DNA of 64,000 bases. It comes from Curvibacter sp. PD_MW3 (GTDB lineage: Bacteria > Pseudomonadota > Gammaproteobacteria > Burkholderiales > Burkholderiaceae_C). This document shows positions 22,560 through 41,870 of the stretch, in pieces. The stretch lies in NCBI GenBank assembly GCA_002633085.1, contig NSIV01000004.1:124001-188000 (forward strand), given 5' to 3'. The position numbers were made by a program, and so were the translations under genes. Position 1 is the first letter of the stretch; every line of letters starts with the position of its first letter. The notes under the pieces are model-generated. The model saw only the letters and a program-made list of their open reading frames with translations. It did no database searches and was not told where the DNA came from.

Positions 22560-22581
22560 TTGACGTTTACGTAAACGTCAA
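22560..22581. promoter_or_regulatory. LiuR-type operator before mccB
   Basis: A perfect 22-bp palindrome with arms TTGACGT and ACGTCAA around TTACGTAA. It lies 44 bases upstream of mccB and 115 bases upstream of the divergent GGDEF-EAL gene. Near-identical sites occur at 27902 and 40484, and a weaker one at 41849. Assignment to the MerR protein encoded at 39999-40415 is an inference from the known LiuR regulation of these pathways. Confidence 0.85.
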
Positions 22582-22696
22582 TTGTGGCAGATTTGGACGC
22601 CTGCCCGCCGCAAATGTCGGCAGAGCACCACGACGGTGCGTCAAACAGGCACGGCCCTTGCTAAACACAAGGGCGAGAAGCCCACCCGTGAGTACC

Positions 22697-24811
22697 ATGT
22701 CTTTCCTCCCTACACGCTCACGCCGCACCAGCTTGCTCAGTGCCGGGGAACTCGACCGGGCACGTGTGCTCGACACGCTGGTCAACAACCTGGACGGCAT
22801 GGCCTACCGCTGCCGCAACGACGCCAGCTGGCGCATGATCTTCGTCAGCCAAGGTTGCCTGATCCTGACCGGCTACCAGCCGACCGAACTGGTGGAAAAC
22901 ACCACGATCACCTGGGAAGACATCACCCACCCTGAAGAACGCGCTTATGTGCGTGCCCATATCCATGCGGCTGTACTCGGCGGGCAACGTTTTTCCGTGC
23001 AATACCGGATCGTCACGAAATCAGGGCACTTGAAATGGGTGGTCGAACGCGGCATTGCCGTGCCCGATGAAATGGGTGAGGTCGTGATCGAGGGCTTCAT
23101 CGAAGACGTGACCAACCAGCGCGAAATGCTCGAGGCGCTGGAGCAAGCCGAACTGCGTTACCGCAACATCTTCGAGCACGCATCCGAAGGCATCTTCCAG
23201 ACCACACCCGACGGCCGTTACCTGGCGGCCAACCCGGCGCTGGCACGCATCTACGGCTATGCCAGTCCGGCAACCCTGATCGCCAGCCTGGACGACATCG
23301 GGCGCCAGCTCTACGTGCGTCCAAGCCAGCGCGAGCGCTTTCGCCAACTCATGGAGCAACAAGGCGAAGTGCTCAACTTCGAATCCGAGATCTACCGGCA
23401 GGACGGCGCCCGCATCTGGATCTCGGAGAACGCCCACATCGTGCGCGACACCGCCGGCGAGACGCTTTACTACGAAGGGACGGTGCAGGACATTTCGGAG
23501 CGGCGGCATTACCAGGAGCAACTCGAGCGCCAGGCCAACCACGACATGCTGACCGGCCTGCCCAACCGCATCCTGCTGGGGGACCGTGTGGAGCAGGGCA
23601 TTGCCCGCGCGGCGCGGCTGGGCTACTACCTGACGGTGGTGTTCATCGACCTGGACAACTTCAAGTTCATCAACGACAGCCTGGGCCATGGCGCCGGTGA
23701 CAAACTGCTGCGGGAAATCGCCGACCGCCTCAAGCACTGCGTGCGCACGTCTGACACCGTGGCACGGCTGGGCGGCGATGAGTTCGTGTTGCTGCTGAAC
23801 GACCACTTCCGCGCCAGCACCGTGATGTCTCAACTGCAGCGCGTGCTGACCGAAATCGCCCGGCCCGTGCTGTTGTCCGGGCGTGAATTCCACATTGGTG
23901 CCAGCCTGGGTGTTGCGCTCTACCCGGCCGACGGCGAAGACTCGGCCAGCCTGCTCAAGCATGCGGATGTCGCCATGTACGCGGCCAAGAACCGCGGGCG
24001 CAACAACTTCCAGTTTTTCACCAGCGCGCTCAACCGCGAAGCCGACGAGCGACTCAACCTGGAGACGGCGCTGCGCCTGGCCATCGAGCATGACGAATTC
24101 GAGGTGCACTACCAGCCCAAGTTTGACCACCGCCGCCGCATCGTCGGCATGGAAGCGCTGGCGCGCTGGTTCCACCCCGAATACGGCGCGGTCAGCCCCG
24201 ACAGATTCATCCCGATCGCCGAAGAAACCGGCCTGATCCTGCCGCTGACCACCGCCATCCTGCGCCGCGCCTTTGCCGCCGCCCACCACTGGAACCGTCA
24301 GCGCACCACCCCGCTGCGCATGGCGGTCAACCTGTCGCCACGCCTGTTCCTCAGCGGTGACATCGTGGCCCACGTGGCTGAGCTGCTGGACGAAGCGCAA
24401 CTGCCGGCCGCGCAAGTTGAGCTGGAAATCACCGAGACCGTGTTCATGGGCGATGGCGATCGCGCCATCACCACGCTGGACCGCTTCAAGGACCTGGGCG
24501 TCAACCTGGCGATGGACGACTTCGGCACCGGCTATTCCTCGCTGAGCTACCTGCGGCGCTTTCCGCTGGACATCATCAAGATTGATCGATCGCTGGTCAC
24601 CGGCATCGAGCACGAGGAAGAGGTGGCGATGATCGCGCGCGCCGTCATCTCGCTCGGCCAGAGCCTGCGCAAGACCGTGGTGGCGGAGGGCGTGGAGAAC
24701 CAGGCGCAGTTCGACTTTCTGCGTTACCAGGGCTGCCACGAATTCCAGGGCTACCTGCTGTCGCGCCCCCTGTCGCAGGAGGCACTGACCCGCCTGCTCG
24801 ACGCGGGCTAG
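22697..24811 (+). CDS. PAS-PAS-GGDEF-EAL cyclic-di-GMP signalling protein
   Basis: A 704-residue protein from ATG 22697 (a GTG at 22688 is an alternative). Two PAS domains (about 30-150 and 150-275) precede GGDEF (RLGGDEFVLLL near 359) and EAL (MEALARWFHPE near 486). The inhibitory-site motif RTSD lies five residues before GGDEF, so the cyclase should be feedback-controlled. EAL catalytic motifs are intact: LEITETVFM, DDFGTGYSSLSYL, DIIKIDRSLV and VVAEGVE. Either or both activities are possible. No membrane segment or signal peptide is seen, so it is probably a cytoplasmic sensor. It is divergent from mccB across a 180-base region holding the palindromic operator. Its last codons overlap the convergent HAD gene by 4 bases. 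Confidence 0.92.
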   Translation: MSFLPTRSRRTSLLSAGELDRARVLDTLVNNLDGMAYRCRNDASWRMIFVSQGCLILTGYQPTELVENTTITWEDITHPEERAYVRAHIHAAVLGGQRFSVQYRIVTKSGHLKWVVERGIAVPDEMGEVVIEGFIEDVTNQREMLEALEQAELRYRNIFEHASEGIFQTTPDGRYLAANPALARIYGYASPATLIASLDDIGRQLYVRPSQRERFRQLMEQQGEVLNFESEIYRQDGARIWISENAHIVRDTAGETLYYEGTVQDISERRHYQEQLERQANHDMLTGLPNRILLGDRVEQGIARAARLGYYLTVVFIDLDNFKFINDSLGHGAGDKLLREIADRLKHCVRTSDTVARLGGDEFVLLLNDHFRASTVMSQLQRVLTEIARPVLLSGREFHIGASLGVALYPADGEDSASLLKHADVAMYAAKNRGRNNFQFFTSALNREADERLNLETALRLAIEHDEFEVHYQPKFDHRRRIVGMEALARWFHPEYGAVSPDRFIPIAEETGLILPLTTAILRRAFAAAHHWNRQRTTPLRMAVNLSPRLFLSGDIVAHVAELLDEAQLPAAQVELEITETVFMGDGDRAITTLDRFKDLGVNLAMDDFGTGYSSLSYLRRFPLDIIKIDRSLVTGIEHEEEVAMIARAVISLGQSLRKTVVAEGVENQAQFDFLRYQGCHEFQGYLLSRPLSQEALTRLLDAG

Positions 24812-25458
24812 CGCAACACGTCCGGCAACTGCGCCATGTCGCCGAACACCTCGACGGCACCCGCGCGGCGGAACACCTCGGCATCGCCCTGCGGCACGTA
24901 GGCAAACACCGTGGCGCCGGCCGCCACGCCGGCGGCAACACCGGTCAACGTGTCTTCCACCACGGCGCAACGCTGTGGCACTGCCGCCAGGGCGGCGGCG
25001 GCAGCCAGGTAAACGTCCGGGTGCGGCTTGGAGCGCGGCATCTCGTGGCCGCTGAAGATACGGCCGGCAAAGTAGTCGAGCAGGCCGACCTTGCGCAACT
25101 GCAATTCGACCTTGTGGCGGTCTGCGCCCGAGGCGCAAGCGATACGCGCGTCATGCCGGGCATGGACTTCATGCACCGCAGCGTGTGCGTTGGCAATGAC
25201 GGTCAGTTCGGACTCCAGCGCCGCATTGCGCCGGGCACGAAAGCCGGCCAGCCAGTCCTCGGTCAGCGGCTGGCCGGTGTGCTGCTCGATGCGCAAGCGC
25301 TCGTCCTTGACCGCCTTGCCGACAAAGATGGACCAGCATTCCTCGGCCGTCAGCTCCCAACCGCGCTCGGCCAGCATGTCGCGCAGCACGCGATTGACGA
25401 TGGGCTCGGAGTCCACCAACACGCCATCGCAGTCGAACAGGATTGCGTCAAATCGCAT
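24808..25458 (-). CDS. HAD-superfamily phosphatase (subfamily IA, beta-phosphoglucomutase-like)
   Basis: A 216-residue protein. Motif I is LFDCDGVLVDSEP (residues about 7-19), with motif III/IV region SKPHPDVYLAAA and VVEDTLTGVAAGVAAGATVFAYV. A small helical cap follows motif I. The family includes phosphoglycolate phosphatase, beta-phosphoglucomutase and sugar-phosphate phosphatases; the substrate cannot be assigned. It overlaps the convergent GGDEF-EAL gene by 4 bases. Confidence 0.85.
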   Translation of the reverse strand: MRFDAILFDCDGVLVDSEPIVNRVLRDMLAERGWELTAEECWSIFVGKAVKDERLRIEQHTGQPLTEDWLAGFRARRNAALESELTVIANAHAAVHEVHARHDARIACASGADRHKVELQLRKVGLLDYFAGRIFSGHEMPRSKPHPDVYLAAAAALAAVPQRCAVVEDTLTGVAAGVAAGATVFAYVPQGDAEVFRRAGAVEVFGDMAQLPDVLR

Positions 25459-25475
25459 TACATCAAATTACTATT

Positions 25476-25523
25476 ATTTTGATAGCAACTGGCGCAATAA
25501 TGACAAGGATGGGGCATCGATTT
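25476..25523 (+). repeat. Dispersed GATAGC-type repeat between YchJ and HAD genes
   Basis: ATTTTGATAGC, AACTGGCGC, AATAATG, ACAAGG, ATGGGGC and ATCGATTT in order. This is the best intergenic copy of the element. It ends at the stop codon of the ychJ-like gene and lies before the HAD gene start. Confidence 0.6.
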
Positions 25524-25930
25524 CATTGATGATCGCCATCAACGTAGTACCAGCGCCCCTCTTCGCGCACAAAACGGCTGCGCTCATGCAGGCGCACGGC
25601 ACGGCCGAACAGCTCACGCAGCCGGGCGACGAACTCGACCTCGGCATGGTCATCGTCGATGACCTGATTGTCGCGCACCTCCAGCCCCAGCCATTTGACA
25701 CCGGCATCGAAGCTCACCCGCGACGGCCGCTTGCTGGCATGCCAGGTGGCTCGCAGGTAGTCGGCACGCTCCCGCACGAAGGCCGTGTAACGCGAACGCA
25801 TCAGCGCCTCGGCGTCGGGCGCCGGCGTACTTTCGTCTTCCACGTAGCGGCCGCAGCATTGCGCATACGGCAGGACCTGGCCGGCCGCATCGCGCCGGCC
25901 GCAAGGGCAGTCGACAGCTGACACCGCCAT
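25523..25930 (-). CDS. YchJ family (UPF0225) SEC-C motif protein
   Basis: A 135-residue protein from ATG 25930. The N-terminal zinc motif DCPCGRR then YAQCCGRYV is the SEC-C-like signature of YchJ. The conserved core ALMRSRYTAFVRERADYLRATWH and FDAGVKWLGLEV, and the C-terminal REEGRWYYVDGD, match the family. YchJ function is not well defined. Its start codon overlaps the rhodanese stop codon by one base (TGATG), which suggests translational coupling. Confidence 0.88.
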   Translation of the reverse strand: MAVSAVDCPCGRRDAAGQVLPYAQCCGRYVEDESTPAPDAEALMRSRYTAFVRERADYLRATWHASKRPSRVSFDAGVKWLGLEVRDNQVIDDDHAEVEFVARLRELFGRAVRLHERSRFVREEGRWYYVDGDHQ

Positions 25931-26343
25931 CAGCCCTTTTTCGCCTTGCGCTGTTCCAGCGTCTCCACCGGACCGCCCTGCTTCACCCATTCGGCAAAAC
26001 CGCCGTCGATGTGCGCCACGTTGGTCATTCCCATGTCCTGCAGCGTCTTGGTGGCCAGCGCGCTGCGCCAGCCGGCACCGCAGAACAGAATGAAGCGTTT
26101 GCTCTCGTCGGCCCACATCGGCTTGTGGTACGGCGACTCGGGATCGACCCAGAACTCCAGCATGCAGCGCGGCGCATGCGTGCTGCCGGTGACGGTGCCG
26201 TCCTTCAACTCGCGCACGTCGCGAATGTCGACGATATGCACCTTCGGGTCGTCCAGCATGCCCAGCACCTCGGGCACGGTGTAGGTCTTGACCTGGGCCA
26301 TGGCCTCGTCGACGAGGGCACGGAATCCTTTGGTGATCGGCAT
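25930..26343 (-). CDS. Rhodanese-like domain protein
   Basis: A 137-residue single-domain rhodanese from ATG 26343, preceded by an AGGAGACA ribosome binding site. The CH2A-like VHIVDIRDVRELKDGTVTGSTHAPR and the active-site loop FCGAGWRSALATK, with the catalytic Cys near residue 88, are present, as is the C-terminal HIDGGFAEWVKQGGPVE. It probably transfers sulfane sulfur to cyanide or another thiophilic acceptor; the physiological acceptor is unknown. Translationally coupled to the YchJ-like gene. Confidence 0.9.
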   Translation of the reverse strand: MPITKGFRALVDEAMAQVKTYTVPEVLGMLDDPKVHIVDIRDVRELKDGTVTGSTHAPRCMLEFWVDPESPYHKPMWADESKRFILFCGAGWRSALATKTLQDMGMTNVAHIDGGFAEWVKQGGPVETLEQRKAKKG

Positions 26344-26510
26344 GGTGTGTCTCCTGAATAGGAAGGTGCGGCCTCGATGAGGTCGCCCGGGAAGCTTGTT
26401 GAAATTGTCGCATGGCCGACCGCAAAGAACGCGCCTCAAGCCACCGGTCCAGGTGCGCCACGCCCGTCTCCCATCTGAAGTATCATCGCCGCCGACTTGA
26501 ATTCAGAGAC

Positions 26511-26720
26511 ATGGCAAACGAAGTGGGATCCATCAGACAGGCAGGCGCGTCCACCGCGGTCAAAGGACTGGTGAGCAGCCGGCCGCTGACGCCCCGCGTC
26601 TCGACCTACGACCCGTACGCCGACGCCCAGGCCAAACGACAGGCCAAGGCCGAGCAAATGCAGATCATCCTCAACACCATGGGCCAGCCCACCGGCCGGT
26701 TGATCAGCTTCGTCGTCTGA
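26511..26720 (+). CDS. Small hypothetical protein, 69 residues
   Basis: An ORF from ATG 26511 encoding a basic, Ala/Gln-rich protein (RVSTYDPYADAQAKRQAKAEQ then MQIILNTMGQPTGRLISFVV). The amphipathic helix in the middle and a sensible C-terminus suggest a real protein, but the ribosome binding site is weak and I know no family. It lies alone on the plus strand between two leftward units. Confidence 0.45.
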   Translation: MANEVGSIRQAGASTAVKGLVSSRPLTPRVSTYDPYADAQAKRQAKAEQMQIILNTMGQPTGRLISFVV

Positions 26721-26744
26721 CGGCAGCCGGCACGCGCCTGCGGC

Positions 26745-27875
26745 TCAGGCCAGCGCGCGCTGGATCAGGATTTTCTGCACGTCGCTGGTGCCCTCATAAA
26801 TCTGGCACACGCGCACGTCGCGGTAGATGCGCTCGACCGGGAAGTCGCTCACATAACCGTAGCCGCCGAGCGTCTGGATGGCGGTGCTGCACACCGCTTC
26901 AGCCATCTCACTGGCAAACAGCTTGGCCATGGCGGCTTCCTTCAGGCAAGGCCGGCCGGCATCACGCAGCGCCGCGGCATGCCAGACCAGCTGGCGCGCG
27001 GCTTCGATCTTCGTCGCGCACTCGGCCAGACGGAACCCGACGGCTTGGTGGTTGAAGATCGGCTGGCCGAAGCTCTCGCGCTGTTTCGCGTAGTCGAGTG
27101 CCACCTCGAACGCGCTGCGCGCCATACCGATGCTCTGCGCCGCGATGCCAATGCGCCCGCCTTCCAAGGCGCCGAGCGCAATCTTGTAGCCCTCGCCCTC
27201 GGCACCAATCAGGTTTTCGGCCGGGATGCGACAGTTGTCGAAATTGATTTGCGCCGTGTCGCTGGAATGCTGGCCCAGTTTGTCTTCCAGGCGCGCCACC
27301 ACATAACCCGGTGCGTCGGTCGGCACCAGGAAGGCGCTCATGCCCTTCTTGCCGGCGCCCTTGTCGGTGACGGCAATCACGATGGCCACGTCGCCGTTCT
27401 GGCCACTGGTGATGAACTGCTTGACGCCGTTGATCACATAACCGTCGCCATCTTTCTCTGCCGTGGTGCGCAGCGACGAGGCATCGGAGCCGACGTGCGG
27501 CTCGGTCAGACAGAAGGCGCCGAGCAGCTGGCCCTGGGCCAGCGGCGTCAGCCAGCGTTTCTTCTGCTGTGCGTTGCCGTAACGCATGAGGATGGCGTTG
27601 ACCGGGCAGTTGGTGACGGAAATCGCGGTGCTGGTGCCGCCGTCACCGGCGGCAATCTCTTCCAGCACCAGCGCCAGCGTCAGGTAGTCCAGGTTGGCGC
27701 CACCGAACTCTTCCGGCACGCAGATGCCGTAGGCACCCAGCGCGGCCAACCCCTGGTGTGCCTCTTTCGGGAAATGGTGTTCCTTGTCCCAGCGCGCCGC
27801 ATTTGGCCACAGCTCCTGCTTGGCAAAGTCACGCACCGCGTCGCGGATCATTTCCTGGTCTTGGGTCAACAGCAT
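26745..27875 (-). CDS. Acyl-CoA dehydrogenase (short/branched-chain type)
   Basis: A 376-residue flavoenzyme that oxidises acyl-CoA to enoyl-CoA, passing electrons to ETF. Motifs are FCLTEPHVGSDASSL (FAD and substrate binding), QFITSGQNGDVAIV and FGQPIFNHQAV. The catalytic Glu is in the usual IYEGTSDVQK context near residue 360. This differs from the isovaleryl-CoA dehydrogenase at 38379. Short-chain or 2-methyl-branched substrates (isoleucine/valine) fit the family and the LiuR-type operator located 26 bases upstream of the start. The exact substrate is not shown by sequence. Confidence 0.9.
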   Translation of the reverse strand: MLLTQDQEMIRDAVRDFAKQELWPNAARWDKEHHFPKEAHQGLAALGAYGICVPEEFGGANLDYLTLALVLEEIAAGDGGTSTAISVTNCPVNAILMRYGNAQQKKRWLTPLAQGQLLGAFCLTEPHVGSDASSLRTTAEKDGDGYVINGVKQFITSGQNGDVAIVIAVTDKGAGKKGMSAFLVPTDAPGYVVARLEDKLGQHSSDTAQINFDNCRIPAENLIGAEGEGYKIALGALEGGRIGIAAQSIGMARSAFEVALDYAKQRESFGQPIFNHQAVGFRLAECATKIEAARQLVWHAAALRDAGRPCLKEAAMAKLFASEMAEAVCSTAIQTLGGYGYVSDFPVERIYRDVRVCQIYEGTSDVQKILIQRALA

Positions 27876-27901
27876 GGGCTTGTCTCGCTTGTCTTGTTCA
27901 A

Positions 27902-27923
27902 TTGACGTTTACGTTAACGTCAA
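27902..27923. promoter_or_regulatory. LiuR-type operator before the acyl-CoA dehydrogenase gene
   Basis: Identical to the 22560 palindrome except one base in the centre (TTACGTTA for TTACGTAA), with arms TTGACGT and ACGTCAA. It is 26 bases upstream of the dehydrogenase start and downstream of the SDR gene, so it serves the dehydrogenase. Confidence 0.85.
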
Positions 27924-27952
27924 TTATGCCCCTGCTGCTACCGGGGCTGCCG

Positions 27953-28627
27953 TCAGAACGCGTCGTAGCGCCGGCCGTCGTGATGCAGGAACGTGCCCTT
28001 GTGCTCCGCCGTCAAGCCACCAAGGGTGCGGCGCATGGCGGTCACGCTTTCCTCCACCGACAGTGGCGCGCCGGCACCGCCCATGTCGGTCCGCACCCAA
28101 CCCGGGCACAGCGCCACCAGAATGGCGCCCGGGTAGTCGTGCTGGGCGGCCACCACCGCCATGTTGAGCGCTGCCTTGCTGACGCGGTAGGTCCAGCCGA
28201 AGCTGGACTCGACCGCACCGATCTGCCCCATGCCGCTGGTGATGAAAGCGAACTTGCCGCCGTGGCGCGAAGCCGCCACCAGCGGCGCCACCTGCGGAAT
28301 GGCCTGCATGGCGCCCAGCACATTGGTGTGCATGATGCAATCAAACTCGGGTTGAGTCGGCGGCGTGTCAGCGCCGCTGGTGCTGTAGACGCCCGCCACG
28401 TAGAGCGCGATGTCGATTTCCTCGCCATCGAGCTGCCAAGCCAGGCCGCTGATGCTGGCTGGGTCGGCCACGTCGAGCTTGAGCGCCGTGGCGCCCAGCG
28501 CGCGCAAGCGCGCCAGCCCGGCGGCATCGCGCGCGGTGGCAATGACACGCTCACCCGCCTCGGCGTATTGCCGCACGAACTCCAGGCCAATGCCGCGGGA
28601 GGCGCCGATGACCAGGATCGTTGCCAT
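27953..28627 (-). CDS. Short-chain dehydrogenase/reductase, C-factor-like
   Basis: A 224-residue Rossmann-fold oxidoreductase. The cofactor motif is VIGASRGIGLEFVRQY, with LDVADPASI and LYVAGVY. The catalytic Ser is in FAFITSGMG and the YxxxK motif is YRVSKAALNM. The compact length and PGWVRTDMGG segment resemble the CsgA/C-factor group of SDRs. The substrate is unknown. It follows the chemoreceptor gene on the same strand with an 8-base gap, so they may be cotranscribed. Confidence 0.85.
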   Translation of the reverse strand: MATILVIGASRGIGLEFVRQYAEAGERVIATARDAAGLARLRALGATALKLDVADPASISGLAWQLDGEEIDIALYVAGVYSTSGADTPPTQPEFDCIMHTNVLGAMQAIPQVAPLVAASRHGGKFAFITSGMGQIGAVESSFGWTYRVSKAALNMAVVAAQHDYPGAILVALCPGWVRTDMGGAGAPLSVEESVTAMRRTLGGLTAEHKGTFLHHDGRRYDAF

Positions 28628-28635
28628 ATGCGCTT

Positions 28636-30156
28636 TCAGAGCCGGAAGGCGCCGACCAGTTGGTTCAGGTGCTGCGCCTGTTCGCGCAGGCTCATGGCGG
28701 CAGCGGCGGACTCCTCCACCAATGCGGCGTTCTGCTGCGTGGCCTGGTCCATCTGCGTCACGGCCTCACCCACCTGGGCCACGCCCTGGCTTTGCTCGGC
28801 GCTGGCGGCACTGATCTCGCCCATGATGTCGGTCACGCGGCGGATGCTGCTCACCACTTCGCTCATGGTGGTGCCCGCCTGGTCCACCAGGGCTGTACCC
28901 TGCTCGACCCGCTGCACGCTGTCGGTGATCAGGGTCTTGATTTCTTTCGCCGCTTCGGCCGAACGGCCGGCCAGGCTGCGCACTTCGCTGGCCACCACGG
29001 CAAAGCCACGGCCTTGTTCGCCGGCACGGGCGGCTTCCACGGCCGCGTTCAGTGCCAGGATGTTGGTCTGGAAGGCAATGCCGTCGATGACGCTGATGAT
29101 GTCGTTGATCTTGCGGCTCGAATCATTGATGCCCTTCATGGTGTCGACCACCTGGGCCACCACTTCACCGCCCTGGATGGCCACCGTGCTGGCGCTTTGG
29201 GCCAGCTGGTTGGCTTGTTTGGCGTTGTCGGCGTTCTGGCGCACGGTGGAGCTCAACTCTTCCATGGAAGCTGCAGTCTCCTCCAGCGAACTCGCCTGGC
29301 TTTCGGTGCGGGCACTCAGGTCCTGGCTGCCGTCTGCGATCTCGCTGCTGGCCGTGGTGATGCTGTCCGTCGAATGACGCACCTCGCCGACCAGTCGGCG
29401 CAGCGAATCCTGCATGCGCACCAACTCCTGCATCAGGCTGTTGTCGTAGCGCGTTGGCGGCACCGGGTAGACCAGGTTGCCTTCGGCAATTTCATGCAGG
29501 GCTTTGCGGGCGTCACCCGGATCACCACCGAGCTCATTGCACACGGTATTGCGCAGGTAGAGCGTGAAGCCGACGGCCACGACCACGGCCAGCACCGCCA
29601 GCGACAGCGCAAACACAATGAGCCGGTTGGCCTGAAGTTCCACATTGGCCTGCGCCTCTTCAGAAATCTTGCCAGCCACCTTGATCTGCTGCAGCAGCTC
29701 AGCCCGCAAGTCCCGCCAGGCAGGGGTCTCTGTGCTGTTGAGAAACGGGATGGTGTCCGGCGACTGCTCCTTGATCAGCACCGTCACCTTCTCCTGCGCC
29801 TGGGCATGCTTCGCTCGCAGTGCCGGCAGCTTGCTCAGACCTGCCTCAAATTGTGTGCCCTGGGCAATCTTGCTCGCCTCGGCAAACGCCTTTTCATAGC
29901 CGGTGCGCGCGCCCTCCAGGTTGTCGTAAGCACGCTTGTTGGTCGGATCGAGCACGATGTTGCGCAAGGCCTGCCCCATCTGCAGACCCTGGGCGTACAT
30001 CTCGGTCAGGCCACTGCTGATGCGCTGCTCGGTTTCGATGTAGTGGTGAAACTGGTTTTGGGTATGGACCAGCCCGCCGATGCTGCCGGCCAGGCCGATG
30101 ATGAACAGCACCGCAGGAACCACGGCACACAAAAGAAGCTTGTTACTGAATTTCAT
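28636..30156 (-). CDS. Methyl-accepting chemotaxis protein
   Basis: A 506-residue chemoreceptor from ATG 30156. Transmembrane segment 1 is [24 protein letters not shown]; a periplasmic four-helix-type sensor of about 150 residues follows, then segment 2 ([19 protein letters not shown]), a HAMP linker, and a coiled-coil signalling domain. The hairpin tip [28 protein letters not shown], which binds CheW/CheA, is intact. There is no C-terminal NWETF-type pentapeptide. The ligand is unknown. Confidence 0.92.
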
Positions 30157-30211
30157 GGGGTTAACCCTGATATGTGACAAGCCACATTCTGCATCATCAG
30201 TCACTTATATT

Positions 30212-30246
30212 TGGCCAAAAATACCAGGGGGGGCATGTCGCCCCCC
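30212..30246 (-). terminator. Terminator downstream of the thiolase gene
   Basis: A GC-only 7-bp stem (GGGGGGC at 30228-30234 with GCCCCCC at 30240-30246), a 5-nt loop and a following TATTTTT on the minus strand. It sits 29 bases after the thiolase stop codon and separates it from the chemoreceptor. Confidence 0.75.
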
Positions 30247-30274
30247 TCTTCTTCTGACGTCAAAAAACGACGAC

Positions 30275-31456
30275 TCAGAGCATTTCCAGCGCCACCGCCG
30301 TGCCTTCACCACCGCCAATGCACAGCGTGGCCAGGCCGCGCTTGAGGCCACGGGCCTGCAACGCGTACATCAGCGTCACCATGATGCGTGCACCACTGGC
30401 GCCGATCGGGTGGCCCAGCGCGCAGGCACCGCCGTTGACGTTGACGATGTCGTGCGACACCTTGAGCTCTTCCATCAGTGCCATCGGCACCACGGCAAAG
30501 GCCTCATTGACTTCCCACAGGTCCACGTCCTTGACACTCCAGCCGGCCTTGGCCAGCGCCTTCTGCGTGGCGCCCACCGGGGCGGTGGTGAACCAGTTCG
30601 GCTCCTGCGCATGCACGGCGTGGGCCACGATCTTGGCCAGCGGCTTGCAGCCCAGCTTGGCGGCGGTGGAAGCACGCATCATCACCAGGGCGGCGGCGCC
30701 GTCGTTGATGGACGAGCTGCTGGCAGCGGTGATGGTGCCGTCCTTCTTGAAGGCGGGCTTGAGCGCCGGGATCTTGTCGAGCTTGGCCTTGCCCGGGCCT
30801 TCATCGATGGAGATCACGGTGTCGCCAGCGCGGCCCTTGACCGTGACCGGCGTGATCTCGGCGGCAAAAGCGCCGGACTGGATCGCGGCCTGCGCGCGAC
30901 GCACGCTGGTGATGGCGAAGTGGTCCTGCGCCGTGCGGCTGAAGCTGTACTTGGCGGCGCACTCTTCGCCGAAGGTACCCATGGAGCGGCCGGCTTCGTA
31001 GGCATCCTCCAGGCCGTCGAGCATCATGTGGTCGTAAATCTTGTCGTGGCCCATGCGGTAGCCGCCACGGCCCTTGAGCATCAGGTAGGGTGCGTTGGTC
31101 ATGCTTTCCATGCCGCCAGCCACGATCACGTCGGCCGAACCGGACTGCAGCATGTCGTGCGCAAACATGGCCGCGCGCATGCCGGAGCCGCACATCTTGG
31201 ACAGCGTCACCGCGCCCGCGCTCTTGGGCAGGCCGCCCTTGAAACCCGCCTGGCGCGCCGGCGCCTGGCCCTGGCCTGCCATCAGGCAGTTGCCGAACAG
31301 CACCTCGTTGACGGCCTCGGGCGCGATGCCGGCACGCTCGACGGCGGCCTTGATGGCTGCGCCGCCGAGGTCATGGGCGGCGAGGGAAGAGAAGTCACCC
31401 TGGAACGCCCCCATGGGGGTACGGGCGGCGCCAACGATAACGATGGGATCGGACAT
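30275..31456 (-). CDS. Acetyl-CoA acetyltransferase (thiolase)
   Basis: A 393-residue thiolase from ATG 31456 (MSDPIVIVGAARTPMG; the frame opens further upstream without support). Catalytic residues are visible: the acyl-accepting Cys in SKMCGSGMRAA near 88, His in GGACALGHPIGASGARI and the second Cys in ATLCIGGGEG. Size and motifs fit the biosynthetic/degradative acetoacetyl-CoA thiolase class (AtoB/PhaA). It can cleave acetoacetyl-CoA formed downstream of HMG-CoA lyase once acetoacetate is activated, consistent with the local theme. No palindromic operator is seen before it. Confidence 0.92.
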   Translation of the reverse strand: MSDPIVIVGAARTPMGAFQGDFSSLAAHDLGGAAIKAAVERAGIAPEAVNEVLFGNCLMAGQGQAPARQAGFKGGLPKSAGAVTLSKMCGSGMRAAMFAHDMLQSGSADVIVAGGMESMTNAPYLMLKGRGGYRMGHDKIYDHMMLDGLEDAYEAGRSMGTFGEECAAKYSFSRTAQDHFAITSVRRAQAAIQSGAFAAEITPVTVKGRAGDTVISIDEGPGKAKLDKIPALKPAFKKDGTITAASSSSINDGAAALVMMRASTAAKLGCKPLAKIVAHAVHAQEPNWFTTAPVGATQKALAKAGWSVKDVDLWEVNEAFAVVPMALMEELKVSHDIVNVNGGACALGHPIGASGARIMVTLMYALQARGLKRGLATLCIGGGEGTAVALEML

Positions 31457-31610: not shown

Positions 31611-33587
<1,977 letters not shown>

Positions 33588-33615: not shown

Positions 33616-33693
33616 TCTTCTTACGCCGGTATGAACCGGATCAAGTTCGCGGGTTTGGAATCCATCTCAGCGCAACCATTGCGCACCCCGGGC
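33616..33693 (-). ncRNA. TPP riboswitch in the thiC leader
   Basis: On the minus strand GGGGTGC, then GCTGAGATGG, ACCCGCGAACTTGATC, CGGTTCATACCGG and CGTAAGAAG. This order and spacing are the conserved core of the thi-box aptamer (CTGAGA pyrimidine-sensing loop, then the GAACCTGATC- and CGTAGGAA-like segments). The thiC start is about 130 bases downstream. No clear terminator follows, so control is probably at translation initiation. Confidence 0.93.
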
Positions 33694-33759
33694 AAGGCAA
33701 AGTGTACGTCAGCCCATGGCCAACGCCATGACCAAGGTCAATTTTTGCCAACCGGCCAA

Positions 33760-35589
33760 CTACATGCTGGTGCGCCGCTGCGAGAAACGCCGGCTGCGCT
33801 CGTAGGGGAAAACGTCGTACACGTACCCCTGCCGGATGCGCTCCTGGTGGCTCTGCCAGAAGGCCACGTCGAGCAGGTCGGCATGGTGTTTCATGAAGAC
33901 CTCGCGCACCACCGGGTTGCCCAGCAGAAAGGGGGCGAAGGTTTCGGGAAACACATCGTGCGGCCCCACGCTGTACCAGACCTCGCCCGACATCTCCTCT
34001 TCCTCGGTGCGGGGCTGCGGCACGCGACGGAAGTTGCAGTCGGTGATGTACTCGATCTCGTCGTAGTCGTAGAACACCACCTTGCCATGGCGCGTGACAC
34101 CGAAGTTCTTCCACAGCATGTCGCCGGGAAAGATGTTGGCCGCCACCAGATCCTTGATGGCCTTGCCGTACTCGATGACGGCGCGCTCCAGTTGGGCACG
34201 GGCGCGCAAGGCATCCTCGTCTGTGCGCGACGGATCGGCCCCGCCGGCGTCGAACACCTCCTGCAGGTAGATGTTGAGCGGGATCATGCGCCGCTCGATG
34301 TACAGGTGCTTGATGATCACCTCGCTGCGGCCGTCACCATCGCGGTCGCTGATCTCCAGCTGGCTCGGTGCGAACTTTTCAATTTCAGCGATTAACTCGT
34401 CATTGAACCGTTCGCGCGGAAACGCCACCAAGCTGTACTCCAAGGTATCGGCCATGCGGCCGACCCGGTCGTGCTGCTTCACCAGCAGGTACTTGCCCTT
34501 GATCTGCTCACGCGTGGTGTCCTTCGGCGGCGGATACCAGTCCTTGATGAGCTTGAACACATACGGAAAGGACGGCAGGTCGAACACCAGCATCACCATG
34601 CCCTTGATGCCGGGCGCGATGCGGAACTTGTCGCTCGAGTGCTTCAGGTGGTAGAGAAAGTCGCGGTAGAACAGCGTCTTGCCCTGCTTGGCCAGGCCGA
34701 GCGCGTTGTAGAGCTCGGCGCGTGGCTTGCGCGGCATCATGCTGCGCAGGAACTGCACATAGGCCGACGGTACCTCCATGTCCACCATGAAGTAGGCCCG
34801 CGCAAAGGAGAACAGCATGAGCAGATCGTCCTCGCCGAACAATGCGGCATCGATCACCAACTGACCATGTTCGTTGTGCAGGATGGGCAAGGCAAACGGC
34901 ACCTCGTGAAAGCCATTGATGATCTTGCCCACCACGTAGGCGCCCTTGTTGCGAAAGAACAGGCTGGACAGCACCTGCACCTGGAAATTGGCGCGCAGCT
35001 TGACCTGCCCCAGTTGCGCGTTCACCGCCGCCAGCACATGGTCGACGTCTTTGGCCAAGTCCTCGAACTCGCGCTGCAACTGGAAGTTGGTGATGACGCG
35101 CTCGATGGCCTCGCGCAGCGTCTCGCGCGTCGGGTAGTAGGCGCGGTAGGTCGGCTTGGCGGCCGGCTCGTCGTTTTCGATGTACTCGGTGCTGACAGCC
35201 GGGCGCACGAAGATGAAGTCGTTCTGGAAGTGCGTGCGGTGCAGGATCTTGCAGGTGACCGAGTTGAAGAAGGTCTCGGCCAGCTCAGGCTGATGGTGGT
35301 CCACCAGCAGGCCGATGTAGTGCAACTTGACCTGGTGCCAGATGGCCATCGGCTGCGTGCCGGCCTGGAACTCCTTCGCCAAGCGCTGCACACACTCCTT
35401 GACGCGCAGGTCGTAGAACTCGATGCGCTCGCGCTGGGCGCGCTGCTGGCCATGCCAGTCGGCGGTCTCGAAACGGTGTTTGGCCCGCGCCGATTCGGTG
35501 CGAAACAGGCGATAGTGGCGGTTGAAGCCATCCATCATCGCCTTGGCGATGTCATAGGCGATGGAGGAATCAAGCCGCTGCGGAAACAT
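33760..35589 (-). CDS. aceK: Isocitrate dehydrogenase kinase/phosphatase
   Basis: A 609-residue bifunctional regulator that phosphorylates or dephosphorylates isocitrate dehydrogenase, switching flux between the TCA cycle and the glyoxylate shunt. The AceK kinase fold is visible: ATP loop [23 protein letters not shown], catalytic [15 protein letters not shown] and metal-binding [11 protein letters not shown]. The N-terminal helical regulatory domain (residues 1 to about 310) is present. Length is normal. No isocitrate lyase or malate synthase gene adjoins it. It starts 9 bases after the carbonic anhydrase stop codon on the same strand. Confidence 0.96.
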
Positions 35590-35597
35590 CGGGGTCC

Positions 35598-36254
35598 TCA
35601 GGACCGGGCGGCGAGCACTCCCTGAATCGCGGCCCTGTACATGGGTTCGATCGAGTCGGTGCTGTTGATGGTCATCTTGAGATCCTGCAGCAAGCCATCG
35701 TGCACCCCGAAGGACCAGCCGTGAATGCTGACGTTCTGACCGCTGGCCCAGGCGTCGAGCATGACGGTGCTGACGCCGACATTGACCACCTGCTCGATGA
35801 CGTTGAGCTCCACCAGCGCATCATGACGATGGCGCTCCGGCATGGCGTCCAGCAGCCCGCGATGGCGGTCGCGCACATCCTGGATGTGGCGCAGCCAGTT
35901 GTCGGCCAGCCCGATGCGCGCGCCCTCCAGCGCAGCCTGCACGCCGGAGCAGCCGTAGTGACCGACCACCATGATGTGCTCCACCTTGAGCCGCTCGACC
36001 GCGAACTGGATGGCGGAGAGCGCGTTCAGGTCCGAATGCACCACGATGTTGGCGACGTTGCGGTGAACGAACACCTCGCCCGGGTCGAGACCGGTGATCT
36101 GGTTGGCCGGCACCCGGCTGTCGGAGCAGCCGATCCACATGTACTTGGGCGTCTGCTGCTTGACCAGCCCGGTGAAGAAACCGGGGCGCTCGCGCTCCAT
36201 CTGCTCGGCCCAGGCACGGTTGTGGAAAAACAGGTCTTCAAGGGATTTGCTCAT
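35598..36254 (-). CDS. can: Beta-class carbonic anhydrase
   Basis: A 218-residue enzyme interconverting CO2 and bicarbonate. The zinc ligands are visible in GCSDSRVPA (Cys near residue 42 with its Asp-Arg dyad) and VGHYGCSGV (His and Cys near 96-99). HRNVANIV is also conserved. It is upstream of aceK by 9 bases and may be cotranscribed with it. Bicarbonate is used by the biotin carboxylase MccA encoded elsewhere in the window, but no specific link is implied. Confidence 0.95.
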
Positions 36255-36284
36255 GCGCTCGATTGTCCTACACGGTGAGAAACC

Positions 36285-38303
36285 CTAGTGCCGCAGGGTG
36301 GCACGCACATTCCAGTCCAGCAAGCCGAGTTGCGCGCGCGCCTGGGCATCCTGCTGCGCATCGAAATGGCAGTCGGCGCCGGCCGGCCCGGGCGAGCAAA
36401 CAAAGCTGGCCGGGTCTCCCAGGGTCCAACTGCCTTGGGCATTGCGGGCCGTGCCGTAGTAGTTCATGCTGAACGGCGCATTCAGGGCCGGGTTGGTCTG
36501 CTTGGCCGGGTCGAGCAGCAGGTTACGGCCCGTCTTGACATAGCCGCTGTTGACGCCCAGCAAGGGCAGCAACGTGGGGAACATGTCGCGGTGGCTGGCG
36601 GGCAGTTGGCGCTGCGGTCCACAGTCGAGGCCATCGTCCCAGATCACGAACGGCACCTGACTGAGCAGGTAGCGCCGCTCCGGCGTGGCGTACAGACCGA
36701 AGCTGCGCACATTGTGGTCACCGGTGGCGGCTATCACGGTATTGGCGTGCTGCGGGCCCGCGCGCACTTCTTGCACCAGCCCGCCCAACAGGTCGGTGGC
36801 GTAATGGTAGGAGTCGATGTTGAGCCACAACGTATCGGCACTGCGCTCGCCCCCCCACTTGGCTTGGTTGCGTTCGACCCGCTGGTACTCCGGCGGCAGA
36901 TCGTAGGGCGGGTGGTTGGTGGCGGTCAGCACGAAAACAAACAGCGGTTTGTCCTCTTTTTTCTTCAGGCGTTCGGACAGGTAGCGGAACACATAACTGT
37001 CCCACACGCCCCAGATGCCCAACGTGGCCTCGGGATAGGCGGCCTTGAGGTTGTTCGCATCCACCACTTCGTCAAAACCCTGCGTCCTGAGCACGCGATC
37101 CAGGTCGCGCCAGCCAGATCGCGTCGACGTCACGAACAGGGTGTGATAACCGGCCTGCTTCAGGAGCAGAGGAACCGACCAGGGAATCGGTGTCTTGCCC
37201 TGCGGCCCGAGCGTCAACGGTGTGATCGGGGTGGAAAACAGGATGGCTTCGAGCGAGGGGTGCGTACCGGGCTGCGCAGAGTCGAAGTTGGAGAAATGGC
37301 AGGCCTGCTTCAGCGTCGGCGCCAGCCGGCCCAGCACATCAAAGTCTTTGGCCTGGTAGCGGAACGGTTCGGCACTCCAGGACTCCATCAGGAAGAACAG
37401 CAGGTTCTTGCGCGGCTTGCCGGGTGGGGCATCGACACCCTGGGCAAACAATGAAGCACGCAGCGCCTTGTCATCGCCGGCCTCGATACCGAGCACACGT
37501 GCCGCCGCCATCGGCGAGTCATAGCCCAGCTGCTTCAGACCCAGCAATGGATCGCTGAAGTTCTGCGACGCCTTGCGGCCATCCCAAGCGAACTTGAGCG
37601 CAATCACGCCGTTGGGCACCATGTCGTTGAGGAACTGCGAGGTCGTGACCGAGACGTTCTGCCGCCCCAGCGCCATGGCGCGCAGCGTGCCCTTGGTGGT
37701 CAATACCAGCAGGAACAGCGCCGCCAACACCCCCAGCAAGGTCAGCCAGACCGGGATGCGCCGGTCGCCAATGCCGCGGTTCAGCCGCAGGCTCAGCCGG
37801 CCATAGGCGGCCTTGCGGGCCGCCATGGAACCCCAACTCGCGCCGGCGAGCACCGCCAGCGTCAACGTGACCGGGAAGTCGCTCCAGATGGTCTGGAGAA
37901 TAGCCTTGGTGTCATCCTCGAAGAAACCGAACACCACTGGATCGATCGGCGTCTTGTAGAACCCGAAGTAATGCAAATTGACCAGTGAGGCGGTGACGAA
38001 CAGCAGCGTCACCGTGCCGGTCAGCCAGCCGTGCCAGCGCGCCGGCACGATGATCAGTACCGGCCACAGCAGAATCGCCGCGGCGGCGCAGACCTTGAGG
38101 TCGAAGCGAGCGCCCTGGAACACCACGGACCAGAGATCGGCCAGCGGCGCATCGAAGCCTTCGGGCCAATGCCAGGCGATCTGCCCCATGCGCAACAGCG
38201 ACAACGCGCAGGCCACGCACAGCACCATGACCCAGGCCTGCAGGGTGGCGGAGGCCAGCGCCCCCAGCAAATGCTGGCCGAAGGTCCGCAGCGAAAACTT
38301 CAT
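36285..38303 (-). CDS. Membrane sulfatase-fold protein (LTA synthase/phosphoglycerol transferase-like)
   Basis: A 672-residue protein with five or so N-terminal membrane segments (WVMVLCVACALSLLRM, FDLKVCAAAAILLWPVLIIV, WLTGTVTLLFVTASLVNL and others) and a periplasmic sulfatase-like domain from about residue 310. Visible are LLFFLMESWSAEPF (metal-binding Glu), QPGTHPSLEAILFS (candidate nucleophile Thr) and IAATGDHNVRSFG (Asp-His metal ligands). The layout is that of LTA synthase-like or OpgB-like phosphoglycerol transferases, which in Gram-negatives modify periplasmic glucans or lipids. The substrate cannot be assigned. It stands alone between can and ivd. Confidence 0.85.
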   Translation of the reverse strand: MKFSLRTFGQHLLGALASATLQAWVMVLCVACALSLLRMGQIAWHWPEGFDAPLADLWSVVFQGARFDLKVCAAAAILLWPVLIIVPARWHGWLTGTVTLLFVTASLVNLHYFGFYKTPIDPVVFGFFEDDTKAILQTIWSDFPVTLTLAVLAGASWGSMAARKAAYGRLSLRLNRGIGDRRIPVWLTLLGVLAALFLLVLTTKGTLRAMALGRQNVSVTTSQFLNDMVPNGVIALKFAWDGRKASQNFSDPLLGLKQLGYDSPMAAARVLGIEAGDDKALRASLFAQGVDAPPGKPRKNLLFFLMESWSAEPFRYQAKDFDVLGRLAPTLKQACHFSNFDSAQPGTHPSLEAILFSTPITPLTLGPQGKTPIPWSVPLLLKQAGYHTLFVTSTRSGWRDLDRVLRTQGFDEVVDANNLKAAYPEATLGIWGVWDSYVFRYLSERLKKKEDKPLFVFVLTATNHPPYDLPPEYQRVERNQAKWGGERSADTLWLNIDSYHYATDLLGGLVQEVRAGPQHANTVIAATGDHNVRSFGLYATPERRYLLSQVPFVIWDDGLDCGPQRQLPASHRDMFPTLLPLLGVNSGYVKTGRNLLLDPAKQTNPALNAPFSMNYYGTARNAQGSWTLGDPASFVCSPGPAGADCHFDAQQDAQARAQLGLLDWNVRATLRH

Positions 38304-38378
38304 TGTCGACTTCCCTTGTTCACTCAGGGAAGTATTGTGCCGCCTGCCGGCGCCTCCCGTATCCAGGGAGGCGACCGG

Positions 38379-39557
38379 TCACATGGTTTCGGCAAACAGC
38401 TCGCGGCCGATCAGCATGCGGCGGATCTCACTGGTGCCGGCACCAATCTCGTACAACTTGGCGTCGCGCCACAAGCGGCCCAGCGGGTATTCGTTGATGT
38501 AGCCGTTGCCGCCATAGATCTGCACGCCTTCGCCCGCCATCCAAGTGGCCTTCTCGGCGCACCACAGAATGACCGAGGCGCAATCCTTGCGCACCTGGCG
38601 CACATGCTCGGTGCCCAGCATGTCGAGGTTCTTGGCCACGGTGTAGGCGAACGAGCGGCCGGCCTGCAACACGGTGTACATGTCGGCCACCTTGCCCTGG
38701 ATCAGCTGGAATTCGCCGATGCTCTGGCCGAACTGCTTGCGGTCGTGGATGTAGGGCACCACGTTGTCCATCACCGACTGCATGATGCCCAGCGGGCCGC
38801 CGGTCAGCACGGCGCGCTCGTAGTCCAGGCCGCTCATCAGCACCTTGGCACCGCCGTTGACGCTGCCCAACACGTTGCTCGCCGGCACCTCCACGTTGTT
38901 GAACACCAGTTCACCAGTGTGGCTGCCGCGCATGCCGAGCTTGTCGAGCTTTTGCGCGATCGAGAAGCCCTTCATGCCCTTCTCGATCAGGAAGGCGGTG
39001 ACGCCGCGTGCGCCCAGCTCGGGCTCGGTCTTGGCATAGACCACCAGGGTATCGGCGTCCGGGCCGTTGGTGATCCAGAACTTGCTGCCGTTGAGCAGGT
39101 AGTAGCCGCCCTTGTCCTCGGCCTTGAGCTTCATGCTGATGACGTCGCTGCCAGCGCCCGGCTCGCTCATGGCCAGGGCGCCCACATGCTCGCCGGAGAT
39201 CAGCTTGGGCAGGTACTTGCGACGCTGTTCGTCATTGCCGTTGCGTTTGATCTGGTTCACGCACAGGTTGCTGTGCGCACCGTAGCTCAGGCCGACGCTG
39301 GCCGAAGCGCGCGAGATCTCCTCCATGGCGATCATGTGCGCCAGGTAGCCCATGTTGGCGCCGCCATACTCCTCGCCCACTGTGATGCCGAGCACGCCCA
39401 GGTCTCCCATCTTGCGCCACAGGTCCATCGGGAACTGATCGTTGCGGTCGATCTCGGCCGCACGCGGCGCAATCTCGGCCTGCGCGAAATCGCGCACCGC
39501 ATCACGCAGGGCATCGATGTCGTCGCCAAGCTGGAAGTTGAGTCCGGGCAGGTTCAT
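38379..39557 (-). CDS. ivd: Isovaleryl-CoA dehydrogenase
   Basis: A 392-residue flavoprotein that oxidises isovaleryl-CoA to 3-methylcrotonyl-CoA, the substrate of MccAB. It has the family marker in which the usual catalytic Glu near the C-terminus is absent ([13 protein letters not shown]), and the base is supplied instead by Glu near residue 246 in [10 protein letters not shown]. Other motifs: [34 protein letters not shown] and [17 protein letters not shown]. It is third in the merR-thioesterase-ivd cluster behind the operator at 40484. Also named liuA. Confidence 0.95.
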
Positions 39558-39583
39558 GCAAGTCTCCGTCGAATGAAATGGGG

Positions 39584-40009
39584 TTAATAAGTCTTGGGCA
39601 CGGGCACCAGGGTCTGCTGCAGCATGGCGCAGGCGCGCTGCTGGCCGTCGGCATCGATATGCACCACCTCTGCGGCAGTGACGATGATGCGCCGGCCTGC
39701 CTTGAGCACACGGCCGGTGGCGCGCAGTTCGCCACCCTGAAAGCTGTTGAAGAAATTGATCTTGTATTCGGCCGTCACCACTTCCATGCCTTCCGGGGCC
39801 ACGGTCAGGCCGGCATAACCGCCGGCAATGTCGGCCAATGCACCCATGGCGCCGCCGTGAAAGCCATCCTGTTGCTGCGTCACCTTGTCGGAATACGGCA
39901 GCGCCAGTTCACACAGCCCCAGCTCCACGCGCAACAGGCGCGCGCCGAGGTGGCGCATCATGCCCTGGCGCTCGAAGCTGGCCTGCACACGGGCGAACTC
40001 AGGCTGCAT
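39584..40009 (-). CDS. PaaI-family hotdog-fold thioesterase
   Basis: A 141-residue protein from ATG 40009, whose first codons overlap the end of the merR gene by 11 bases. The hotdog core is [23 protein letters not shown], with the HGG and Asp positions used by PaaI thioesterases, then [34 protein letters not shown]. It probably hydrolyses a dead-end or stalled acyl-CoA and recycles CoA in branched-chain degradation. The substrate is not defined. Translationally coupled to the regulator and upstream of ivd. Confidence 0.87.
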
Positions 40010-40415
40010 GGGCCTTCTTCCCGCGTTTGGCTTCGACCTTGGCCAGCAAGGCACGGGCCTCGCGCTGGTGCGCCTTGACCTCGTCCAGGTTGGCCTGCAG
40101 GTCGGCCATCTGCTCCTCCACCTGCCGGCGGTGCTGAGCCAGCACGTCCAGGAATTTCTGCAACTGCGGCCCGGTATCGCGCGGGCTGTCGTACATGTCG
40201 ATGATCTCTTTGGCCTCGGTCAGGCTCAGCCCCAGCCGCTTGGCGCGCAACGTGAGCTTGAGGCGCGTGCGGTCGCGACCGCTGTAGACCCGGTTGCGCC
40301 CGCCGGGGCCCGAGCGCTCGGGTTGCAGGAGGCCCATGTCTTCGTAGAAGCGCATGGCCCGTGTGGTCAGGTCGAACTCCCGGGCCAGATCGCTGATGCT
40401 GTAGGTCGTTGCCAT
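39999..40415 (-). CDS. liuR: MerR-family transcriptional regulator, LiuR-like
   Basis: A 138-residue MerR protein from ATG 40415 (MATTYSISDLAREFDLTTRAMRFYED; the frame opens 23 codons earlier without support). The winged helix-turn-helix is followed by LLQPERSGPGGRNRVYSGRDRTRLKLTLRAKRLGLSLTEAKEIIDMYD and a C-terminal coiled-coil dimer helix. There are no metal-binding cysteines, so it is a metabolite-type MerR member. LiuR controls branched-chain amino acid catabolism genes in Gamma- and Betaproteobacteria. The next genes are a thioesterase and ivd, and the palindrome at 40484 lies 69 bases upstream, which implies self-regulation. Confidence 0.9.
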   Translation of the reverse strand: MATTYSISDLAREFDLTTRAMRFYEDMGLLQPERSGPGGRNRVYSGRDRTRLKLTLRAKRLGLSLTEAKEIIDMYDSPRDTGPQLQKFLDVLAQHRRQVEEQMADLQANLDEVKAHQREARALLAKVEAKRGKKAHAA

Positions 40416-40483
40416 AGGGTTTGGATGAGTGCAAGGTCCACCGCCACGCCAACGCGGCACCTCCCGCAGGACGGCCGCACGCA

Positions 40484-40505
40484 TTGACGTTTACGTAAAC
40501 GTCAA
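40484..40505. promoter_or_regulatory. LiuR-type operator before liuR-thioesterase-ivd
   Basis: A perfect copy of the 22560 palindrome: TTGACGT, TTACGTAA, ACGTCAA. It lies between the end of the MFS gene and the liuR start. Confidence 0.88.
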
Positions 40506-40544
40506 TTATGCAACCAAAACCCGAGCCGCCACAGCGGCGGGAAG

Positions 40545-41732
40545 TCAGCGCGGCAACCGGTCTGGGCGCAGCAGCAGGAAGGCGCCCAAGGCCAGCAGCG
40601 CCAAGCCGGCGGCGAATAAAAAGGCGCTGGCCGGCTGCAGCAGCCACAGCGCCCCGGCGATCAGAGAAGCGGGCAGGTAGATCAGGCCCGTCACGAAGTT
40701 GTGCAGCCCGATGGCTGCGCCGCGCCGTTCCTGCTCCAAATCAGCGATGAAGGCCTTGCTCTGGGCTTCGTCAATCGCATAGAACACACCAAACAGCAGG
40801 AACAAGGCAATGATCTGCCACGGCTCGCTGGCAAAGGCAAACCCCAGGCTCATCAGCAGGTACGTCAGGTAACCCAGCATGACCATGTGCCCCCGCCCCA
40901 GATGGTCGCCCAGTTTGCCGATCAACGGCGCGGCAATGACACAGGCAATGTTGAACAGGGCATACAGCAGCACCACATCCTTGACGCTGAAGCCGATGCT
41001 GTGGGCTTTCAACAGCAGGAAACTGAAGCTGAAATAGGCCAGAGAAAAAATGCCCGATGTGACCAGGTAGCGCTTGAAGGCCGGACTGAGGACACCCCAG
41101 GTCTCGAACATGTTTTCGCGCTGACGCGGTATGCCAGGTTGCTCCTTCACCTGGCTCAGGACCAAGATACTGAGCAGGGCGGGAACCATCGCAACCCAGA
41201 ACAGGATCCGGAAAGACGCCAGGCCTTCCCCCAACCATGACAGCAGACCGTAGGCGGCCAGGGGCCCCAACACGGCCCCGGATTTGTCCAGCGCCTTGTG
41301 CACGCCGAAGGCATAACCGCGCGTGTCCTTGTCCGCCACCGTCGACAGCCAGGCATCGCGCGGCGGCCCGCGAAAGCTCTTGCCCAAGCGCTCGATGACA
41401 CGAAAAATCCCGAGCCCGGCCACCGAGCTGGAGACCAGCAGAATCAACTTGGCCAGCGTGGAAAAACCGTAACCCGCCAACGCAAAGACCTTGCGCCGGC
41501 CGGTGCGGTCCGACAACCAGCCCGACAGGTAGTTCAAGGAGGACGCCGCCAAGTCGGCACAGCCTTCGATCACGCCGAGCAAGGCGGCCGAAGCGCCCGC
41601 AATCGTCGTGAAGAACACCGCGAACACGGCAAAAATCATCTCGGAACTGAGGTCGGTCAGGAAACTCACCAGTCCCAGCTTGAGCACATCAGGATGCACT
41701 CCCAGCTTGTTGTTCTCTGAATCATCCGGCAT
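40545..41732 (-). CDS. MFS transporter, 12-span
   Basis: A 395-residue integral membrane protein with about 12 hydrophobic segments. MFS loop signatures are visible: GWLSDRTGRRKVFALAGYG between segments 2 and 3, GKSFRGPPRDAWLSTVAD after segment 4, and GKLGDHLGRGHMV in the second half. The FRGPPRDA segment is seen in a drug/H+ antiporter-like clade of unknown substrate. It is divergent from the MBL-fold gene, sharing a 154-base region with the weak operator at 41849. Confidence 0.82.
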   Translation of the reverse strand: MPDDSENNKLGVHPDVLKLGLVSFLTDLSSEMIFAVFAVFFTTIAGASAALLGVIEGCADLAASSLNYLSGWLSDRTGRRKVFALAGYGFSTLAKLILLVSSSVAGLGIFRVIERLGKSFRGPPRDAWLSTVADKDTRGYAFGVHKALDKSGAVLGPLAAYGLLSWLGEGLASFRILFWVAMVPALLSILVLSQVKEQPGIPRQRENMFETWGVLSPAFKRYLVTSGIFSLAYFSFSFLLLKAHSIGFSVKDVVLLYALFNIACVIAAPLIGKLGDHLGRGHMVMLGYLTYLLMSLGFAFASEPWQIIALFLLFGVFYAIDEAQSKAFIADLEQERRGAAIGLHNFVTGLIYLPASLIAGALWLLQPASAFLFAAGLALLALGAFLLLRPDRLPR

Positions 41733-41848
41733 CGTGCGTCCTTTTCTTTCGCAGCTGACATTCTGGCGCTTTTGACAGACCGGGCCCAGCGCTCCGGAAA
41801 CGGAGGCGACAGCACCACGCAGCAGGCGTCCCTAGAATGAGCCGATGG

Positions 41849-41870
41849 TTGACGTGAACGTCAACGTTAC
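41849..41870. promoter_or_regulatory. Weak LiuR-type operator before the MBL-fold gene
   Basis: Seventeen of 22 positions match the consensus palindrome: the left arm TTGACGT is intact, the central ACGT is present, and the right arm reads ACGTTAC. It lies 17 bases upstream of the MBL-fold start at 41887. Confidence 0.6.

Follow-up and report, generated by a model that had tools for sequence, protein, structure and literature searches.

LiuR is described as a MerR-family repressor of isoleucine, leucine, and valine utilization (PMC3223726), and PMC5343134 gives the number of LiuR regulons as 103 (table) or 104 (text). In Rhodospirillum rubrum, PMC7238569 reports an ILV box 5′ of a LiuR-like merR gene and liu cluster, an arrangement that is met again here. 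LiuR regulons are already known, and the circuit from Curvibacter sp. PD_MW3 described here adds one more. The window, by which we mean the whole 64,000-nucleotide stretch of contig NSIV01000004.1 that was analyzed (positions 124,001 to 188,000), contains a 22-bp palindrome, TTGACGTTTACGTAAACGTCAA, in front of several genes of branched-chain amino acid breakdown, and a gene for a MerR-family regulator (39999-40415, minus strand). Judged from sequence, it is highly likely that this protein is a LiuR-type repressor of its own promoter and of the mcc, acd, metallo-β-lactamase (MBL)-fold hydrolase, short-chain dehydrogenase/reductase (SDR), and etfBA promoters, etfBA encoding the electron transfer flavoprotein (ETF).

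The palindrome is perfect at 22560-22581 and 40484-40505 (0 mismatches) and has 1 mismatch at 27902-27923, as a sequence-only reading of this DNA had claimed. Scanning the window at up to 3 mismatches to the 22-mer gave no match beyond these three, and 100 dinucleotide-preserving shuffles of the window gave 0 matches. The same reading placed the sites before mccB, an acyl-CoA dehydrogenase gene, and a MerR-thioesterase-ivd cluster, and the distances and domain families agree with it. The first site, the predicted operator of the mcc operon, starts 44 nt 5′ of the start (22516) of a carboxyltransferase gene (20909-22516, minus strand; Carboxyl_trans, E 7e-156), probably that of the 3-methylcrotonyl-CoA carboxylase beta subunit, mccB. 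The predicted operator with one change starts 27 nt 5′ of the start (27875) of acd (26745-27875, minus strand), an acyl-CoA dehydrogenase gene with no substrate assigned, whose top NCBIfam match, acryloyl-CoA reductase, is below cut-off. The third starts 69 nt 5′ of the MerR start that we used (40415), although the MerR open frame could begin at 40484. It is the predicted, autoregulatory operator of liuR, of a hotdog thioesterase gene (39584-39991, minus strand; 4HBT, E 3.8e-12; TIGR00369 over cut-off), and of an acyl-CoA dehydrogenase gene (38379-39557, minus strand) that is named ivd by context, no listed NCBIfam model having reached its cut-off. At the acd and liuR sites a -10-like CATAAT, in gene sense, abuts the palindrome. 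A degenerate candidate operator at 41849-41870, with 5 mismatches to the 22-mer, lies between a -10-like TAGAAT and the gene of an MBL-fold metallo-hydrolase (41887-42966, plus strand; Lactamase_B, E 1.2e-17), which is placed in the regulon by this predicted operator; the site consists of a 16-bp core, TTGACGTGAACGTCAA, and a third ACGT. The sequence-only reading had ended its span at 41870, the last base of this site, but the site itself was absent from its text. The 22-mer comprises three ACGT units at 6-bp steps, and the etfBA site two (TTGACGTNNACGTCAA). In sequence terms the 22-mer is either one long site or a pair of overlapping 16-mers, and LiuR may use either register.

The 138-residue regulator matches MerR_1 (E 3.2e-15), MerR-DNA-bind (E 4.4e-14), and MerR, all above their gathering scores. 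No LiuR model was among its NCBIfam matches, and four strings of the palindrome had no match in the literature searched. Its assignment as LiuR-type is supported by the MerR family, by the site 5′ of its own gene, and by the sites 5′ of genes to which family and context give leucine or isovalerate roles.

How far does the regulon extend in this genome, which comprises 3.37 Mb in 17 contigs and is 94.8% complete? The 22-mer with up to 3 mismatches occurs four times, at the three window sites and once on contig C5, and its reversed-pattern control not at all. A degenerate form of the pattern, scanned across the genome, gave six sites at up to 2 mismatches, and a search with the 16-bp core had a control of 0. 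The six targets are mccB, acd, liuR, the MBL-fold hydrolase gene, an SDR dehydrogenase gene, and etfBA. Since the sites 5′ of the SDR gene and of etfB, which is followed by etfA, lie outside the window on another contig, the regulon that had been proposed as local and LiuR-type is probably LiuR-type but is not local. Likewise, sites do precede leucine and isovalerate genes, as had been claimed, but not these alone: to judge by families and context, the regulon would join the breakdown of leucine, and probably of isoleucine, with the electron acceptor of the acyl-CoA dehydrogenases. Set against the LiuR regulons of Proteobacteria as described in PMC5343134 and PMC3223726, the features to mention are the sites at etfBA (a 16-bp core) and at the MBL-fold hydrolase gene, and in relatives those at icmF. 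What began as a guess by eye is now a predicted regulon of six defined promoters whose operator can be tested, and it specifies how a MerR-family protein could repress.

The operator is well conserved. From 486 confirmed relatives encoding the MerR protein, the best 80 make up the named loci, so that counts given for them concern the closest relatives (Curvibacter, Rhodoferax, Ramlibacter, Hydrogenophaga, and others), in which the protein is 80-99% identical. A site lies within 300 nt 5′ of liuR in 77 of these loci, being perfect in 39, with one mismatch in 10, two in 22, three in 5, and four in 1. Among the other three, the sequence of L063 ends 95 nt before the match, and L114 and L121 have none within 300 nt; a perfect site of L121 lies 398 nt past the point where the liuR match starts. 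Sites also recur 5′ of the mccB, acd, SDR, and MBL orthologues, and so the absence from orthologous promoters that the sequence-only reading had named as fatal to it is not what is observed. The 16-bp core site of etfB, with AC, GC, or TC at its center, lies 50-51 bp 5′ of that gene in our genome and also in those of 8 relatives (two of the 10 rows being repeats); further core matches with etf-like centers, in G005, G009, G017, and G018, are outside this count. Eight named loci (L062, L065, L071, L077, L079, L091, L095, and L097) possess a perfect second operator 406-420 nt after the liuR start, while their operator 5′ of liuR has two changes; perhaps the second operator lets the genes that follow liuR be controlled on their own. 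In Hydrogenophaga flava (L117), overlapping 22-mer matches with 1 and 4 mismatches lie 861 and 867 nt past the start of the liuR match, and this pair, six bases apart, amounts to an operator extended to four ACGT units with the 6-bp spacing kept.

Could LiuR be a classical MerR activator, one that occupies the spacer between -35 and -10 and reshapes it on induction? The solved chains closest to the MerR protein are CueR (E 1.6e-11), then a MerR-family protein, MerR, and CadR, so its DNA-binding domain resembles that of the metal sensors. These proteins act as activators bound to the promoter spacer, and 22 bp is a usual length of their palindromic operators. Unlike the CueR and MerR metal sensors, the protein has no metal-sensor NCBIfam model over cut-off, and 76 of the 80 orthologues have no cysteine, which makes a thiolate-bound metal unlikely. 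Promoter geometry speaks against a spacer-binding activator. The liuR promoter profile took in 76 of the 80 loci, those without a site or with fewer than 45 nt before it being omitted, and among the 73 distinct promoters the strongest conservation outside the operator is in the five bases before it (CATAA). Hexamers were counted once for each distinct upstream sequence, at sites with up to 3 mismatches that lie close to a reference gene. A TATAAT-like hexamer (at least 5 of 6 bases) ends exactly on operator base 1 in 12/12 acd, 10/12 SDR, and 44/79 liuR promoters, and in the 65 MBL promoters a -10-like hexamer lies 10-14 bp upstream of the operator. By eye, no -10 was found at the right distance 3′ of the palindromes in the window. 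An activator of the classical kind seems unlikely. If the hexamer is a -10 element, the operator would extend from about -7 to +15. This position suits a repressor and agrees with PMC3223726, and LiuR probably represses by covering the -10/+1 region.

Does the MerR protein itself bind the palindrome? Another regulator, such as the TetR-family LiuQ or FadP, might do so, with the MerR gene a mere neighbor, and betaproteobacteria do have TetR-family regulators of these pathways, according to PMC5343134. But the site stands at the MerR gene itself in the 77 named loci, and protein and site occur together. In 60 genomes (our own and 59 relatives), with orthologues defined by at least 100 bits, a threshold set after a gap in the scores had been seen, and sites by up to 2 mismatches, 31 genomes have both, 25 neither, 2 the MerR orthologue only, and 2 the site only. 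The agreement in 56/60 has a Fisher value of 2e-12, which overstates independence because the genomes are related, and it makes binding by another regulator very improbable. Three genomes of the same genus (G003, G007, and G008; 98-99% complete), in which no MerR orthologue, site, or icmF was found, may have lost the system as a whole. A role for the palindrome as a hairpin in a 5′ RNA leader is highly improbable: the palindrome does lie 3′ of a -10-like hexamer in several promoter classes, but it stands between two divergent genes in 62/80 named loci, and its inner places 9 and 14, which are symmetric partners, show variation mainly on one side, without a matching change.

Repression by a LiuR-type protein would work as follows. 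Without a signal, a LiuR dimer would sit on the operators of its own, mcc, acd, MBL, SDR, and etfBA promoters and, where the operator starts on the last base of a -10-like hexamer, would block RNA polymerase. The signal might be an intermediate of branched-chain amino acid breakdown, either an acyl-CoA or a keto acid; once it is present, the enzymes for leucine and probably isoleucine would be expressed together with ETF. LiuR would also limit its own synthesis. Several observations weigh against this reading. No hexamer with at least 5 matches is found at the operator edge in 35/79 liuR promoters, and the mccB (11) and icmF (20) promoters show weaker hexamers there (CACAAT and TAAGAT). A scan of 40300-42000 for sigma-70-type promoters gave 0 matches, and for this reason we name no -35 element. 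The reversed control of the degenerate pattern had 11 genome-wide matches at up to 3 mismatches, a total over mismatch numbers, and because of it the six extra matches of the pattern itself at exactly 3 mismatches were taken as noise. Two genomes, G030 and G034, have a MerR orthologue but no site within 2 mismatches, and two others, G005 and G011, have sites but no whole orthologue; the latter genomes are 80% and 86% complete, respectively, and G005 has an 80%-identical MerR fragment at a contig edge. L009 and L010 also match the 16-bp core, with 1 mismatch each; since both lie within open reading frames, they were judged to be chance matches.

In relatives, an extra operator recurs 5′ of a gene for a 1097-residue IcmF (NF045497, 1957 bits, cut-off 1500). 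IcmF interconverts isobutyryl-CoA and n-butyryl-CoA, as stated in PMC10481361. The gene is present in 33/60 genomes. Loci were available for 30 of these 33, one of them (G022) without a gene start, which leaves 29 testable, G010 with only 249 nt upstream; a site with up to 3 mismatches lies 5′ of icmF in 20/29, namely in 19/24 with a MerR orthologue and 1/5 without (G011). We tentatively suggest, while leaning slightly against it, that in Comamonadaceae and their neighbors a LiuR-controlled IcmF replaces the 3-hydroxyisobutyrate route for valine. The B12-dependent IcmF would turn isobutyryl-CoA into butyryl-CoA, which a LiuR-controlled acyl-CoA dehydrogenase and ETF could then oxidize. This would explain why icmF and the 3-hydroxyisobutyrate dehydrogenase gene are seldom found in one genome. 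With the equivalog model TIGR01692, below-cut-off matches occur in 58/60 genomes, so only those over cut-off were counted; they are found in 7/60 genomes, none with icmF. Among 200 genomes of the family, 133 have icmF, 60 the dehydrogenase, 7 both, and 14 neither (p 1.8e-27 for exclusion, uncorrected for relatedness), and in the 14 genomes the breakdown of valine is missing or different. Two genera show both states between species: g39 (G063 versus G169 and G242) and g69 (G187 versus G093).

Replacement by IcmF would also explain why the operator stands 5′ of icmF and yet did not turn up near the dehydrogenase genes examined. In eight loci (L214-L221, seven with over-cut-off dehydrogenase matches and L221 with one below), the best match to a LiuR-type site near the gene had at least 8 mismatches, and the same held for 12-kb stretches at five of the over-cut-off loci. 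Other results speak against the replacement. Proteins of the 3-hydroxyisobutyryl-CoA-hydrolase type (ECH_2, PF16113) occur in icmF genomes as well as in dehydrogenase genomes; this family, present in 58/60 genomes, was rejected as too broad to mark the usual valine route. With up to 1 mismatch to the search pattern allowed, operators are found in 95/133 icmF genomes versus 44/60 dehydrogenase genomes. The 38/133 icmF genomes with no such operator are a share near the 16/60 of the dehydrogenase genomes, and since the frequencies are alike, the operator by itself does not track icmF. In our own genome, icmF was not found at E values up to 1e-100, and neither was the 3-hydroxyisobutyrate dehydrogenase. 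An isobutyryl-CoA mutase was sought, and thought unlikely, in Rhodospirillum rubrum (PMC7238569), unlike in the relatives examined here, which have icmF, often with an operator; in the literature searched, LiuR and isobutyryl-CoA mutase appear together only in that paper, the available text of which does not join them in a regulon. If the replacement by IcmF is real, many betaproteobacteria would degrade valine through a vitamin B12-dependent rearrangement, their growth on this route would depend on B12, and a valine route would be absent from pathway annotation.

Within the window, a major facilitator superfamily (MFS) transporter gene (40545-41732, minus strand) separates liuR from the MBL gene. 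In the 62 named loci with divergent genes, MBL and liuR lie within 400 nt of each other with no MFS gene between them. Of the other 18 named loci, 14 lack an MBL match, 2 are truncated, and in 2 (L047 and L049) an MFS gene lies between, as in the window. The MerR protein of L047 is 99% identical to that of the window, which suggests that the source is probably close to Curvibacter delicatus. In L047, L049, and the window, the MBL gene keeps the -10-like TAGAAT and a degenerate operator only (7, 5, and 5 mismatches, respectively), an arrangement that suggests insertion of the MFS gene between liuR and the MBL gene.

The genes 3′ of mccB, on the same strand, are in order a gene without a Pfam match, mccA (17975-19978, minus strand), which encodes a biotin carboxylase with a methylcrotonyl-CoA carboxylase alpha BT domain, a 2-hydroxyacid dehydrogenase gene, an HMG-CoA (3-hydroxy-3-methylglutaryl-CoA) lyase-like gene (16112-17017, minus strand; HMGL-like, E 1.8e-57), and a DsbA-family gene. 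The 2-hydroxyacid dehydrogenase and DsbA-family (15232-15942) genes fall within 15232-17939, and the liu cluster of Rhodospirillum rubrum is likewise reported to hold a DsbA-family gene (PMC7238569).

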